DNA from: Saccharopolyspora sp. NFXS83
GTDB taxonomy: Bacteria; Actinomycetota; Actinomycetes; Mycobacteriales; Pseudonocardiaceae
Reading direction: 5' to 3'
Assembly: GCF_026241095.1 (NCBI RefSeq)
Contig: NZ_JAPFGB010000026.1
Span: forward strand, 1-64,000
Length of the DNA stretch: 64,000 bases
Part shown: positions 11,085 to 43,314 of the stretch, piece after piece
How the letters are laid out: every line of letters begins with the position of its first letter
How positions within the stretch are numbered: the first letter of the stretch is position 1
Made by a program: the position numbers and the translations under genes
The notes under the pieces: model-generated
Told to the model about the DNA's origin: nothing
The model's database searches: none
The model's input: the letters and a program-made list of their open reading frames with translations, nothing else

Positions 11085-12662
11085 TCACTCGGCCAGCGAG
11101 GCGGCGAGCTCCACGAGGGTCCTGGCAGCGAATCCCGTCGCGCCCGGGACCACGTCGTCGTAGGCCTTGTCCGCGCGTCCCGGCCCGGCGATGTCCAGGT
11201 GCGCCCACGGCACGGCGCCGACGAACTCGCGCAGGAACAACGCGGCCGTGATGCCGCCCGGTCCTTGCGGCGCCTGACGCACGTCGGCGAGCTCGCCCTG
11301 CACGTCCGCGGCGTGGTCCTCCAGCAGCGGCATCCGCCACCAGGACTCGCCGACGCGCTCCCCGGCCTCGCGCAGCGCGCGCTCCAGCTTCTCGTCGGTG
11401 GCGAACAGCCCACCGGTGCGCAGCCCCAGCGCGACCTTCATCGCACCGGTCAGCGTGGCGACGTCGACGATGAAGTCCGGCTCGTGTCGCTGTACCGCGT
11501 AGGCCAGCGCGTCCGCGAGCACCATGCGGCCTTCGGCGTCGGTGTTGGCGACCTCGGTGGTCTTGCCGCCGTAGTGCCGCACCACGTCGCCCGGCCGGTA
11601 GCTGCTGCCGGAGACGTGGTTCTCCGCGGACGGCACCAACGCCGTCACGCGCACCGGCAACCGCAGCCGGGCGATGGACAGCAGTGCGCTGAGCACCGCG
11701 CCGCCGCCGGCCATGTCGGTGCGCATCAAGTGCATTCCGTCAGCGGGCTTGATCGAGATCCCGCCGGTGTCGAACGTGATCCCCTTGCCCACCAGCACCA
11801 GGTGCGGGCCGGACTTCACGCCCTCCGGCCGCCAGGTCAGCTCCAGCAGCCGCGGCGGGCTCACCGAGCCGCCGCCGACCGCGAGCACACCGCCGAAGCC
11901 CTTGTCCGCCAACCACTTCTCATCGCGGACCGTCGCCGTGACACCCGGCAGCGGTCCCGCGAGCTCGGTGCCCGCACCGGCGAGCCACACCGGGTTCTTC
12001 ACGTTCGAGGGAGCGTTGGCCAGGTCCCTGGCCAACGAGGTCGCCGCGGCCCACTCGTGCGCGCGGGCAGCCGCCGCGCGCAGCTCCGCCGGGTCGACCC
12101 CGTCGGGCACCACCAGTAATGCCTTGCGCATCCGCGGCGCGGCCGGTTCGGCCGACACCCGGAACCGGTAGTCGCCCAGCGACAACCCGAGCGTCAACGC
12201 CGAGACCAGCTCGGCATCGGCGTCCGCGGGCAACCGCACCTGGACGTACTCCGCTTCCGCCGCGTCGCCGAGGTCCGCCGGGTCGGCGTCCTCATCCGCG
12301 ATTCCCTCGCCGAGCCGGGCGCGCGCCGCCCGCGCGATCGACGCGCCGATCGAGCGCCACCGGCCGACGCCGGAACCGGCACCGACCACCCAGCCGAAAC
12401 GGCCGTCCGGCAGCGGAACCGTGCGCACATCGCCCACGGTGGCCGTCACGCCCAGCGCCTCCAGCAGCGAGGGATCCACGCCCCACGGTTCGGCAGCCGC
12501 GGCCAGGTCAGGCCCGGAGGCCCCGTCGAACACCGGCACCGCCGCCGGAACGCCGTCCCGCCACCGCGAGACCACGTCCACTTCGACCAGTGCCGTCGGG
12601 ATCACCGGGAGCACCGCGTGCTCCGGGGTCCGCGACGAGCCGAACACCGAGGAATCGGACAC
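11085..12662 (-). CDS. pepA: Leucyl aminopeptidase (M17)
   Basis: A 525-residue cytosolic M17 metallo-aminopeptidase that releases N-terminal residues from peptides. The C-terminal catalytic domain shows VGKGITFDTGGISIKP (metal-binding Lys and Asp), LMRTDMAGG and the family signature NTDAEGRMVLADAL, all intact. The N-terminal half is the variable hexamerisation domain. The start is GTG 12662: GGGAAGGA lies 9 nt upstream, whereas an upstream GTG at 12683 would put this ribosome-binding site inside the gene. Full-length M17 proteins are about 500 residues. Confidence 0.92.
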   Translation of the reverse strand: MSDSSVFGSSRTPEHAVLPVIPTALVEVDVVSRWRDGVPAAVPVFDGASGPDLAAAAEPWGVDPSLLEALGVTATVGDVRTVPLPDGRFGWVVGAGSGVGRWRSIGASIARAARARLGEGIADEDADPADLGDAAEAEYVQVRLPADADAELVSALTLGLSLGDYRFRVSAEPAAPRMRKALLVVPDGVDPAELRAAAARAHEWAAATSLARDLANAPSNVKNPVWLAGAGTELAGPLPGVTATVRDEKWLADKGFGGVLAVGGGSVSPPRLLELTWRPEGVKSGPHLVLVGKGITFDTGGISIKPADGMHLMRTDMAGGGAVLSALLSIARLRLPVRVTALVPSAENHVSGSSYRPGDVVRHYGGKTTEVANTDAEGRMVLADALAYAVQRHEPDFIVDVATLTGAMKVALGLRTGGLFATDEKLERALREAGERVGESWWRMPLLEDHAADVQGELADVRQAPQGPGGITAALFLREFVGAVPWAHLDIAGPGRADKAYDDVVPGATGFAARTLVELAASLAE

Positions 12663-32123: not shown

Positions 32124-32447
32124 CTATTCGGTCGCCGGGACAAGCTGGTCCGCGTACTTCGCCATCTCCGGCACGGTGCGCAGCGCCTGGAATTCGATCA
32201 CTTCGTGCCGGGCGAGTTTGCGCAGCTCGAAGGGATCGGTGGCGAGGATGGCCTCCAGCCTTCCGCGGGTCATGGAACGGGCGATGAGCACACCACCGGT
32301 CAATGGCTTGCCCGGTTCCGGAGTTCGATGACCGGTCGTGATGAAGTCACCGGCCTCGTAATGTCGAGTCACCCACTCATAGTGATCCACCAATGCGCCG
32401 TCGATGTCAGATTGCGGAGCGGTGTAGTTCAGCAATACGACGAACAT
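32124..32447 (-). CDS. YciI-like family protein
   Basis: A 107-residue YciI/YCII-related protein: MFVVLLNYTAP at the start, HYEAGDFITTGHRTPEPG, GGVLIARSM and ATDPFELRKLARHEVIEF. The conserved His and Asp of the fold's putative active site (HYEW...TGHRTP) are present. The family is a ferredoxin-like dimer with unclear catalytic activity. The start ATG 32447 is in a fairly AT-rich stretch. It is divergent from the trpS leader promoter. Confidence 0.82.
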   Translation of the reverse strand: MFVVLLNYTAPQSDIDGALVDHYEWVTRHYEAGDFITTGHRTPEPGKPLTGGVLIARSMTRGRLEAILATDPFELRKLARHEVIEFQALRTVPEMAKYADQLVPATE

Positions 32448-32494
32448 GATTCCACGATAGCCCTACCTCGCCACCAATGCCTATATCTCTCTGC

Positions 32495-32500
32495 TAAAGT
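32495..32500 (+). promoter_or_regulatory. Candidate -10 for trpS leader transcript
   Basis: TAAAGT at 32495-32500 is 7 nt from the GTG of the leader peptide, so the transcript would start at or next to that codon. The same hexamer precedes the DUF6157 gene at 46527. The surrounding 60 bp are unusually AT-rich for this genome. Confidence 0.5.
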
Positions 32501-32507
32501 GCGCGCC

Positions 32508-32582
32508 GTGCACGAAATGTCGCATCAGCGTCTGAGCATGTGGTGGGCCGCCCCAGGGCGGCCCCGGCTCGTCGTGCGCTGA
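32508..32582 (+). CDS. Tryptophan leader peptide (attenuator)
   Basis: A 24-codon open frame starting GTG 32508 (or ATG 32517) and ending TGA 32580-32582. It reads VHEMSHQRLSMWWAAP and onward. Tandem Trp codons at 32541-32546 sit at the base of the first of several alternative hairpins. Trp is the rarest residue, so the Trp-Trp pair directly upstream of a Trp-tRNA synthetase gene marks this as a regulatory leader peptide, analogous to the attenuator described for an auxiliary trpS in Streptomyces. Confidence 0.8.
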   Translation: MHEMSHQRLSMWWAAPGRPRLVVR

Positions 32583-32615
32583 ACCCGCACGCACATCGGT
32601 CGCCACCAGGCGGCC
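32545..32615 (+). promoter_or_regulatory. trpS attenuator: alternative RNA hairpins
   Basis: Four complementary segments are visible. Segment 1 (GGGCCGCC, 32545-32552) and segment 2 (GGCGGCCC, 32557-32564) form an 8-bp hairpin with a CCAG loop. Segment 3 (GGTCGCC, 32598-32604) pairs with segment 4 (GGCGGCC, 32609-32615) around ACCA. Segment 2 can instead pair with segment 3. A ribosome stalled on the Trp codons at 32541-32546 would cover segment 1, free segment 2 to pair with 3 and prevent the 3:4 hairpin. There is no U-run after 3:4, so termination or blocking of ribosome access are both possible outcomes. Confidence 0.7.
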
Positions 32616-32667
32616 GAGCGGTGCGAGGACCGGACTGGTGAGCGACCTCCGACCAGCAGGAGAGATC

Positions 32668-33633
32668 GTGACCCGTTTGTCCGGCATCACCCCGTCCGGC
32701 CACGTCCACTTGGGCAACCACCTCGGCGCGCTGCGCCGCTGGGCGAGCGAAGGCGGGCCCGACGACCTGTACTTCATCTCGGACCTGCACGCGATGACCC
32801 TGCCCTACCGACCGGAACGCCTGCGCGCCCTCACCAGGGAGAACCTGGCCGTGCTGCTGGCGAGCGGGATCGCACCGGAGACGGTGTTCGTGCAGTCCGA
32901 CCTGGCCGGCGAGCTGGGAGCGCTGAACTGGGTGCTGGAGTGCACCTGCGGCTACGGCGAGGCCGCCCGGATGATCCAGTTCAAGGAGAAGGGCGCCGGT
33001 CAGGACACCGCCCGGCTCGGCCTGCTCACCTATCCGGTGCTGATGGCCGCGGACATCCTGCTGCAGGGCACGACGGAGGTGCCGGTGGGCGTCGACCAGA
33101 ACCAGCACGTGGAGCTGGCGCGCACGCTGGCGCGGCGGTTCAACGGCACCTACGGCGAGGTGTTCGCGGTGCCCCGAGCGGTGGTGCCGAGGACCGCCGC
33201 GGCGGTGCGGAACCTGTCGGACCCGGCGCGCAAGATGGCCAAGTCCGCGCAGCAGCACGCGGGCGTCGTGTTCGCTCTGGACGAGCCGGACGTGGTGCGG
33301 CGGAAGTTCCGCCGCGCGGTGACCGATGACCTCGGCACCGTCCGCTACGCCCCCGACGAGCAGCCCGCGGTGGCGAACCTGCTGGAGGTCCTCGGGGCTT
33401 GCACGGACGTGAGCCCGTACGCGGCCGCGGCGACGGCGAGCACCTACTCCGAGCTCAAGGACGCCGTCGCGGAGGCCGTGATCGAGCAGCTGCGGCCGGT
33501 CCGCGACGGCGCCCGGGAGCTGCTCGACGATCCGGCCGAGCTGGACCGGGTCCGACAGAAGGGGGCCGGGCGCGCGGCGGAGCGGGCCCGGCCGAGGCTG
33601 GACGCCGCGTTGCGACTGGCCGGGCTGCGCTAG
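32668..33633 (+). CDS. trpS: Tryptophanyl-tRNA synthetase
   Basis: A 321-residue class Ic synthetase that charges tRNA-Trp. It shows the HIGH-equivalent HVHLGN within TPSGHVHLGNHLGA near the N-terminus, VPVGVDQNQHVELAR and the KMSKS-equivalent KMAKS. GTG 32668, with AGGAGAG at 32658-32664, gives the family N-terminus (TRLSGITPSG). GTG 32638, with GAGGA upstream, would add ten residues. The gene lies behind a Trp attenuator. Such regulated TrpRS copies can be auxiliary or resistant to indolmycin-like inhibitors, and whether another trpS exists elsewhere cannot be judged here. Confidence 0.92.
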   Translation: MTRLSGITPSGHVHLGNHLGALRRWASEGGPDDLYFISDLHAMTLPYRPERLRALTRENLAVLLASGIAPETVFVQSDLAGELGALNWVLECTCGYGEAARMIQFKEKGAGQDTARLGLLTYPVLMAADILLQGTTEVPVGVDQNQHVELARTLARRFNGTYGEVFAVPRAVVPRTAAAVRNLSDPARKMAKSAQQHAGVVFALDEPDVVRRKFRRAVTDDLGTVRYAPDEQPAVANLLEVLGACTDVSPYAAAATASTYSELKDAVAEAVIEQLRPVRDGARELLDDPAELDRVRQKGAGRAAERARPRLDAALRLAGLR

Positions 33634-41716: not shown

Positions 41717-43314
41717 CAGAATTCCTCCACGGCGTCGGTACGTCCCCGGAGCCGCTCGATGAGCACGACACCGAGCACGGTGACGATCATCAGCAAGGTG
41801 CAGGCGGCGTAGGCGAGTTGCGAGTTGAGCTCGCCGGGCCTGCCGAGCAACCGGGCGATGGCCACGGGCAGGGTCGGCGCGTCGGGCCGGGCGAGGAACC
41901 CGGTGGCGCCGAACTCGCCGAGCGCGATGACGAATCCGAAGCCCGCCGCGGCCAGCACGGCCCGCGCGGCGAGCGGTACGTCGATCTCGCGCCGGACCCG
42001 CCACGGACCAGCGCCCAACGTCGCGGCGGCCTGGCGCAGTCGTTCGTCGATGGCCCTCAGCACCGGCAGCACCATGCGGATCACCAGCGGCGTCACCACC
42101 AGTGCTTGCGCGAACGGCACCAGCAGCGGCGAGGTCCGCAGATCACCCGGCAGCGAGCCGAGCGTGATCAGGTACCCGAAGCCGACGGTCACCGCGGACA
42201 CGCCCAGCGGCAGCATCAGGGCCAGGTCGAGGCTTTCGGCGACGGCCCGGCGCCGGACCGCGACGAGCACGAAGGACGCCAGCAGCCCGAACAGCAGCGC
42301 CATCCAGGTCGCGTCGACGGCGGTGCGCACCGAGTTGAGCGCCGCCTCTAGCCCGGTGACCTCCAACGTCCCGTTCTGCCCGGTCCCCAGCAGCGCCCGA
42401 TACCCCGCGAGCCCCCACCCGTCCCTCGTGGACACCGATCGCAGTAGCAAGGTCGCGATGGGCGTGCACAGCCCGCACAGCACCAGCCCGGCGAGCCCGA
42501 CGACCCACCACTCCGCTCCTTGCGGGCGCCGCGCCGTGTCGGACGGCGCGCGCAGCCGCAGTGCCGTCTCCCGGCGCCGCCGCGCGACGGTCGCGACCAG
42601 CAGCGCGGCGACGACGGCGGCGAGTTGCAGCAGCGACAGCGCCGCCGCGCCGGGGAGGTCCAGCAGCTGCACCGTGCGCAGGTAGATCTCCGTCTCCAGC
42701 GTCCGCAGCTCACCACCGCCGAGCACCAGGACCACCCCGAAGCTGGTGGCGCTGAACAGGAACACGACCGACGCGGCCGATCCCAGCGCGGGCAGCAGCG
42801 CGGGCAGCGTCACCGAGGTGAACGCGCGCAACCGGCTCGCGCCGAGCGATCGGGCCGCGTCCTCCATCCGCCGGTCGAGGTGGCTCCACAGCCCGCTCAC
42901 GGTGCGCGCGACGACGGCGACGTTGAAGAACGCGTTGGCCAGCACGATCGCGAGCACCCCGGCATCGGCGCCGAACAACGCCCGGAACGCCATGCCCACC
43001 ACGATCGTCGGCAGCACGAACGGCACGGTCACCGCGACCCGCAGCAGCCCGCGACCGGGGACCGCGAGCCGGGCCAGCACGTAGGCCAGCGGCAGTCCCG
43101 CCAGCAGCGCGACGGCGGTGGACGCGGCGGCTTGGCCGAGCGTGAACCCGACGAGCCGCCACGTCGACGGCTCGGCCAGCACCGACCCGACCTCACCGCG
43201 CAGCCCCAGCCCGATGATCGCCGCGACGGGCCAGGCGAAGAACAGCCCGAGGAACCCGAGCACGGTCACCGCCGCCAGCGCCACGGGCAACCGCCTGCGG
43301 AGGCCGTGGTTCAT
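41716..43314 (-). CDS. thiP: Thiamine ABC transporter permease (fused two-domain)
   Basis: A 532-residue permease with about 12 membrane segments in two halves, each having the EAA loop (EDAARSLGASRLRAFTSVTLP in the first and LRQAAATLGAGPWRVRREIDVP in the second). This tandem fused type is usual for ThiP and iron permeases. ATG 43314 overlaps the thiB stop by 4 bp. Confidence 0.88.
   Translation of the reverse strand: MNHGLRRRLPVALAAVTVLGFLGLFFAWPVAAIIGLGLRGEVGSVLAEPSTWRLVGFTLGQAAASTAVALLAGLPLAYVLARLAVPGRGLLRVAVTVPFVLPTIVVGMAFRALFGADAGVLAIVLANAFFNVAVVARTVSGLWSHLDRRMEDAARSLGASRLRAFTSVTLPALLPALGSAASVVFLFSATSFGVVLVLGGGELRTLETEIYLRTVQLLDLPGAAALSLLQLAAVVAALLVATVARRRRETALRLRAPSDTARRPQGAEWWVVGLAGLVLCGLCTPIATLLLRSVSTRDGWGLAGYRALLGTGQNGTLEVTGLEAALNSVRTAVDATWMALLFGLLASFVLVAVRRRAVAESLDLALMLPLGVSAVTVGFGYLITLGSLPGDLRTSPLLVPFAQALVVTPLVIRMVLPVLRAIDERLRQAAATLGAGPWRVRREIDVPLAARAVLAAAGFGFVIALGEFGATGFLARPDAPTLPVAIARLLGRPGELNSQLAYAACTLLMIVTVLGVVLIERLRGRTDAVEEF

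Follow-up and report, generated by a model that had tools for sequence, protein, structure and literature searches.

Auxiliary, indolmycin-resistant tryptophanyl-tRNA synthetases (TrpRS) have been described in Streptomyces, according to excerpts of two papers (PMC6804068; PMC9437257). A candidate attenuator was predicted by Seliverstov in 2005 in front of trpS2 of S. avermitilis, in a study whose excerpt describes terminator and antiterminator hairpins that compete with each other and are made from GGCC-type triples (PMC1262725). By its title, the work of Vecchione and Sello (2010, J Bacteriol 192:3565, cited in PMC4787780) concerns the ribosome-mediated transcriptional attenuation of an auxiliary, antibiotic-resistant trpRS. 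In S. lividans TK24, the trpL2-trpS locus (SLIV_21112/21110) has a leaderless leader and two hairpins, with RNA-seq evidence, in the excerpt of the paper that reports it (PMC8079986).

The tryptophan attenuation of an auxiliary trpS is thus already described in Streptomyces, and since the 2005 prediction, the 2010 report and the RNA-seq data on trpL2 precede our work, the locus that we analyze here, in a window of 64,000 nucleotides of Saccharopolyspora sp. NFXS83 (contig NZ_JAPFGB010000026.1, positions 1 to 64,000), is a well-conserved further case of a known type. The organism of the 2010 report is said to be S. coelicolor. We consider it very likely that the leader of this locus is a ribosome-mediated tryptophan attenuator of the S. 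lividans trpL2-trpS type, serving an auxiliary TrpRS. The response to tryptophan, the stalling of the ribosome, the direction of control and the level at which trpS is shut off are what we infer from the sequence.

The leader region and its gene

A preliminary description of this DNA had placed a 24-codon leader with tandem Trp codons, a TAAAGT hexamer and four segments upstream of trpS, and all of them are there (Table 1). The region itself, which it drew from 32495 to 32637, is right as to its elements and not as to its end: the leader region extends to 32667, because the start of trpS has been moved to GTG 32668. This codon, 30 nt further on than 32638, is most likely the true start; it is preferred because it is preceded by a Shine-Dalgarno (SD) sequence and gives an N-terminus, MTRLSGITPSG, like that of the relatives.

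Table 1. Positions of the leader elements and neighbouring genes in the window
Feature	Position	Strand	Remarks
YCII-domain gene, divergent from trpS leader	32124-32447	-	upstream neighbour
-10 element TAAAGT	32495-32500	+	7 nt 5' of leader start
Leader ORF MHEMSHQRLSMWWAAPGRPRLVVR	32508-32582, stop 32580-32582	+	24 codons and a stop codon; starts with GTG; probably leaderless
Tandem Trp codons TGGTGG	32541-32546	+	within leader ORF
Segment 1 GGGCCGCC	32545-32552	+	folding, shuffles
Segment 2 GGCGGCCC	32557-32564	+	folding, shuffles
Segment 3 GGTCGCC	32598-32604	+	shuffles, covariation, 2:3 complementarity
Segment 4 GGCGGCC	32609-32615	+	folding, covariation
GGTGAG, putative degenerate counterpart of GGYGGY in relatives	32637-32642	+	matched to L007 and L009 by eye
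Shine-Dalgarno AGGAGA of trpS	32658-32663	+	5' of GTG 32668
Auxiliary trpS (tryptophan--tRNA ligase), 321 aa	32668-33633	+	TIGR00233, 228 bits (cut-off 177); GTG start

The four segments lie 5' of trpS and can pair either as 1:2 and 3:4 or as 2:3. Predicted folds give -19.0 kcal/mol for hairpin 1:2 (32545-32564) and -24.2 kcal/mol for hairpin 3:4 with its outer stem (32590-32625). A T-tract was not found after hairpin 3:4 of the window, where a single T occurs in 8 nt, so that this hairpin does not look like a classical intrinsic terminator; a simple scan of 32300-32800 for terminators and for sigma-70 promoters (-35 plus -10) returned nothing.

Two trpS genes are present in the 6.9 Mb genome, with TIGR00233 scores of 228 bits for the copy at this locus and 353 bits for the other, and on sequence grounds the former is the auxiliary copy of the two. 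Matching loci are found in a genome of the same genus (L008, genome G004) and in Saccharopolyspora sp. HNM0986 (L035). In many Lentzea loci, a divergent gene similar to the upstream neighbour seems, when read by eye, to start just 5' of the leader. Upstream of the TrpE-family loci of the same genome, a WW leader with the -10 spacing was found in 0 of 5 cases. A plasmid search returned relatives that are all below 60% identity. Elsewhere in the window, ARAGORN reports a tRNA-like sequence without assigned type (12354-12443) and a tRNA-Arg(tcg) (41879-41971), both on the minus strand.

Conservation among relatives

Loci were gathered from three sources: 150 related genomes, which gave at least 30 loci (L003-L032) and then 20 more places (L072-L091); named genomes, which gave 39 loci, including L071; and 296 genomes of the class, from which L117-L146 come among the matches listed, L117 and L118 repeating earlier loci. 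Matches of about 50% identity were covered in part (G117 and G090, for example, were left out). A similarity of 0.88-0.90 served as the cut for removing near-identical loci; in the T-tract count, identical loci only were removed. The loci that misfit the 3:4 pattern (L024, L033, L048, L050, L053, L063 and L090) are outside the GGYGGY, switch-to-SD, segment-3, covariation and T-tract counts; L068, which has no readable trpS start, is excluded from the fold, SD, motif, segment-3, covariation, T-tract and spacing counts. In the fold predictions, the automatic 3:4 finder took another hairpin in some loci, e.g. L006, L010, L021, L034 and L138.

All 109 readable auxiliary-type loci among the matches listed have a leader that contains one or more Trp codons, a count that includes duplicates and is the sum of 30 loci from L003-L032, 38 from L033-L070, 19 from L072-L090 and 22 from L119-L146, L141 being masked. 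No Trp-codon leader was found before any of the 26 housekeeping-type trpS (L091-L111, L135, L139, L142, L144 and L145), of which L091 and the last five were put in this type by their N-terminal sequence, after the leader scan; the tree agrees on this assignment for L135, L139, L142 and L145, and L091 and L144 are outside it. An Armatimonadetes sequence (L071), which is 44% identical, has no WW leader. In an unrooted tree of 67 TrpRS, the 47 auxiliary ones, a subset picked from loci with leaders, are separated from all the others by a branch with a support of 100/99. The comparison of leaders in related genera was the check that the preliminary description called for; it gives a Trp codon in every readable auxiliary-type locus fetched, and compensatory changes in hairpin 3:4. 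The breadth of this conservation of Trp leaders, over several actinomycete families, is new here.

In the 65 non-redundant loci, the conserved codons read TGGTGG (58 loci), TGGCGG (6) or TGGCAG (1). Leaders with one Trp (W-R or W-Q) are those of L019, L028, L043, L047, L053, L059, L064, L067, L070, L075, L076, L083, L084 and L140. L007, L008 and L035 have a leader of 48 codons, its start and WW end being unchanged, and in L006, from the same genus, the conserved GTG has become GTA while the remainder of the leader is kept. Among the matches listed, G008, G019, G025, G028 and others have nothing better than a weak TrpRS match (about 1e-40 to 1e-49), from which it may be that the family contains a third, more divergent type of TrpRS.

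The leader is probably translated from a leaderless transcript, since 62 of the 65 non-redundant loci have a TAnnnT hexamer 6-7 nt 5' of the leader start (6 nt in 18, 7 nt in 44, and 8 nt in the last 3), loci which were chosen for a TAnnnT spacing of 5-8 nt (L006 is the sole failure, and spacings of 0-24 nt give just two other matches), and since an SD core precedes the leader in 5 of the 65 loci, versus 56 of 65 for trpS. The idea of a leaderless leader had been put forward for the window on account of its -10 spacing; that spacing in the relatives and the S. lividans trpL2, reported as leaderless in the excerpt of PMC8079986, both speak in its favour.

Evidence for the pairings

Among 49 non-redundant sequences, hairpin 3:4 is paired in 91.8% of cells and has 4 pairs changed on both sides; the figures for hairpin 1:2 are 88.0% and 1 pair. 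Taken together, the two hairpins have 42 double-change cells, whereas shuffles give 16.8 and slid versions no more than 15; their 5 double-change pairs are a number that 20 of 500 shuffles reach. Helix 2:3 is complementary in 98.8% of cells, and shuffles do equally well; no double change was found in it among the non-redundant relatives, its segments being too conserved to covary. The mutually exclusive pairings claimed from the window alone have their complementary segments in place, and they are retained in the relatives, where 3:4 covaries and 2:3 stays complementary. In predicted folds, 3:4 forms when segment 1 is removed and segment 4 is out, and segments 2 and 3 on their own give a broken helix instead of a clean one; therefore antitermination would need kinetic help, or help from the ribosome.

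The reading of the hairpins as GC-rich palindromes that arose by chance in an ordinary 5' region has a negligible probability, even though TGGTGGNCCGCC is no commoner in the genome than its reversed control (30 occurrences versus 39). Among 5000 dinucleotide shuffles of 32448-32667, any short WW ORF appears in 41, one whose Trp codons lie at a hairpin and are followed by a second hairpin in 4, and one that is preceded by TAnnnT at a distance of 6-7 nt in none, which speaks against chance. The fold energy of the leader (32502-32676) lies 2.4 sd below that of shuffles, 2 of 200 of which equal it. Moreover the arrangement is conserved over several families, with compensatory changes, and it is missing before the housekeeping trpS, so that the comparison of relatives refutes the chance reading for practical purposes.

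How trpS would be switched off

The spacing of the -10 element suggests that transcription starts at the GTG of the leader or adjoining it, and that the ribosome would enter at the leaderless 5' end. When charged tRNA-Trp is scarce, in tryptophan starvation or in the presence of a TrpRS inhibitor, the ribosome would stall on the two Trp codons and mask segment 1; segment 2 would then pair with segment 3, hairpin 3:4 would be prevented and trpS would be expressed. When Trp-tRNA is abundant, the ribosome would reach the stop codon, 3:4 would form and trpS would be off. The ribosome-mediated attenuation proposed in the preliminary description gains support from the kept Trp-codon leaders, the complementarity of segments 2 and 3 and the covariation of 3:4, the response to tryptophan itself being presumed.

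The last step may differ between clades. In the Saccharopolyspora clade, where 10 loci were counted (L003-L011 and L034, but not L033, which misfits the pattern), the 8 nt after 3:4 contain 0.7 T on average and never four or more. Four or more T stand there in 54 of the 66 other loci and in 11 of 17 loci that we call Streptomyces-like, a label that we infer from leaders close to trpL2 (e.g. MTTRTCTQLWWAA), those in the tree falling on the auxiliary side. Most of the remaining relatives counted have a hairpin 3:4 that, followed by a T-rich tail, resembles an intrinsic terminator. The doubt expressed earlier about intrinsic termination in the window was therefore justified, and the absence of a U-tract throughout the Saccharopolyspora clade, in all 10 loci counted, is new here. 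Because of this absence, we propose that in the window and its clade the shut-off might proceed by U-independent or factor-assisted termination, or by blocked access to the trpS start. The missing U-tract does not exclude termination, since the published trpL2 has no uridine-rich stretch either.

It may also be that the Saccharopolyspora clade has the same sensor with a translational output, the SD of trpS lying in a hairpin downstream of 3:4 that is controlled by the switch; we consider this rather unlikely. The U-less tails of the clade, compared with the 54 of 66 others, agree with it, as does the SD, whose accessibility falls below that of shuffles in 47 of 66 loci (Wilcoxon p 5e-6, the loci being related). 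In the window, the predicted mean unpaired probability of AGGAGA, 0.33-0.34, points the same way, as a value for the hexamer without shuffle control; in the shuffle comparison the window was scored at AGCAGG, which ties with AGGAGA, and this site is more open (0.66) than in shuffles (0.38), which counts against a hidden SD. The housekeeping trpS show the same trend more weakly (12 of 15, p 0.024). Folding of 59 loci did not reveal a link from the switch to the SD, since freeing or occupying segment 4 leaves SD accessibility nearly equal (0.301 versus 0.290; up in 12 loci, down in 9). A chain model in which free segment 4 would open the SD hairpin was rejected, for it had no effect in folding.

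A GGYGGY pattern between 3:4 and the SD is new here as a candidate element of auxiliary-trpS leaders. It occurs in 48 of 59 non-redundant loci, versus 9.5 in shuffles (sd 2.7, maximum 17), the pattern having been picked by eye on the same loci before counting; two narrower patterns occur in 45 and 37 of the 59 loci, versus 6.8 and 5.8 in shuffles. L009, L025, L045 and L122 are examples. The window has no GGYGGY, and GGTGAG stands in its place. The complementarity of segment 3 to its own downstream region exceeds cross-clade values in 50 of 59 loci and shuffles in 57 of 59, part of which can be explained by clade composition and relatedness; a regulatory logic for 3:6 pairing was not found in the 59 loci. 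We tentatively suggest, while regarding it as doubtful, that GGYGGY is a further segment like segment 4, which would pair with segment 3 and overlap or lie inside the hairpin that covers the SD. This would make a two-level switch, acting on termination and on translation start, of which the U-less Saccharopolyspora clade would rely on the second level.

The T-box motif is GGGUGGNACC, which GGYGGC upstream of the SD resembles. That the leader would contain a T-box-type element binding uncharged tRNA-Trp is extremely unlikely: the frequency of GGYGGY relative to shuffles would fit, but the U of UGGN is often C, the motif is degenerate in the window, and no Rfam T-box match was found in the window at 32400-32800 (E up to 10) or in 11 loci (E up to 1). 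Rfam returned weak, unrelated matches only for this part of the window and 11 relatives. On these three observations the T-box reading of GGYGGC was rejected.

We also hold it to be very unlikely that the leader ORF does not sense tryptophan and simply hands ribosomes on to trpS through re-initiation. Short leader genes that raise downstream translation over short distances have been proposed in bacteria, actinobacteria included (excerpt of PMC4833913), but here 85 nt and a stable hairpin separate the leader stop from the GTG of trpS, and a Trp codon is retained in all readable auxiliary-type loci though much of the peptide varies. The attenuator reading, which we prefer, has its own difficulties: the lack of a U-tract in the window and the empty result there of the simple scan for terminators and sigma-70 promoters; the broken helix of 2:3 and its lack of double changes; the shuffles that match the number of double-change pairs; the leader GTG lost in L006; and a single Trp codon at the conserved place in 7 of 65 leaders.

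Comparison with known systems

The switch probably lets the auxiliary TrpRS be made only when tryptophan-loaded tRNA is scarce. From our comparison, the control of auxiliary TrpRS by Trp leaders would be ancient among actinomycetes and not peculiar to Streptomyces, an ancestry that is put forward as a suggestion since the tree is unrooted. The comparison also suggests that a probably leaderless leader is retained throughout. The U-less clade and the GGYGGY pattern make the shut-off mode of U-less attenuators directly testable. In the parts consulted of the open-licence papers searched, neither a GGYGGY element nor an attenuator before a Saccharopolyspora trpS is described.

Judging from its title alone, the system of Vecchione and Sello (2010) is that of the same kind of gene with the same mechanism. 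Like the window, the Streptomyces and Corynebacterium trp attenuators and that of S. avermitilis trpS2 have, in the excerpt of PMC1262725, a leader with a double or triple UGG repeat and competing hairpins; the terminators given there all have poly-U tracts, whereas hairpin 3:4 of the window has none. The S. lividans trpL2, as the excerpt of PMC8079986 presents it, shares with the window a W-x-A-A leader (MMTRTCTQLWRAA in trpL2) before trpS, two hairpins and the lack of a uridine-rich stretch. It differs in having 13 codons and one Trp, versus 24 codons and two Trp in the window, and in being known from RNA-seq, whereas the leader of the window is known here from its sequence.
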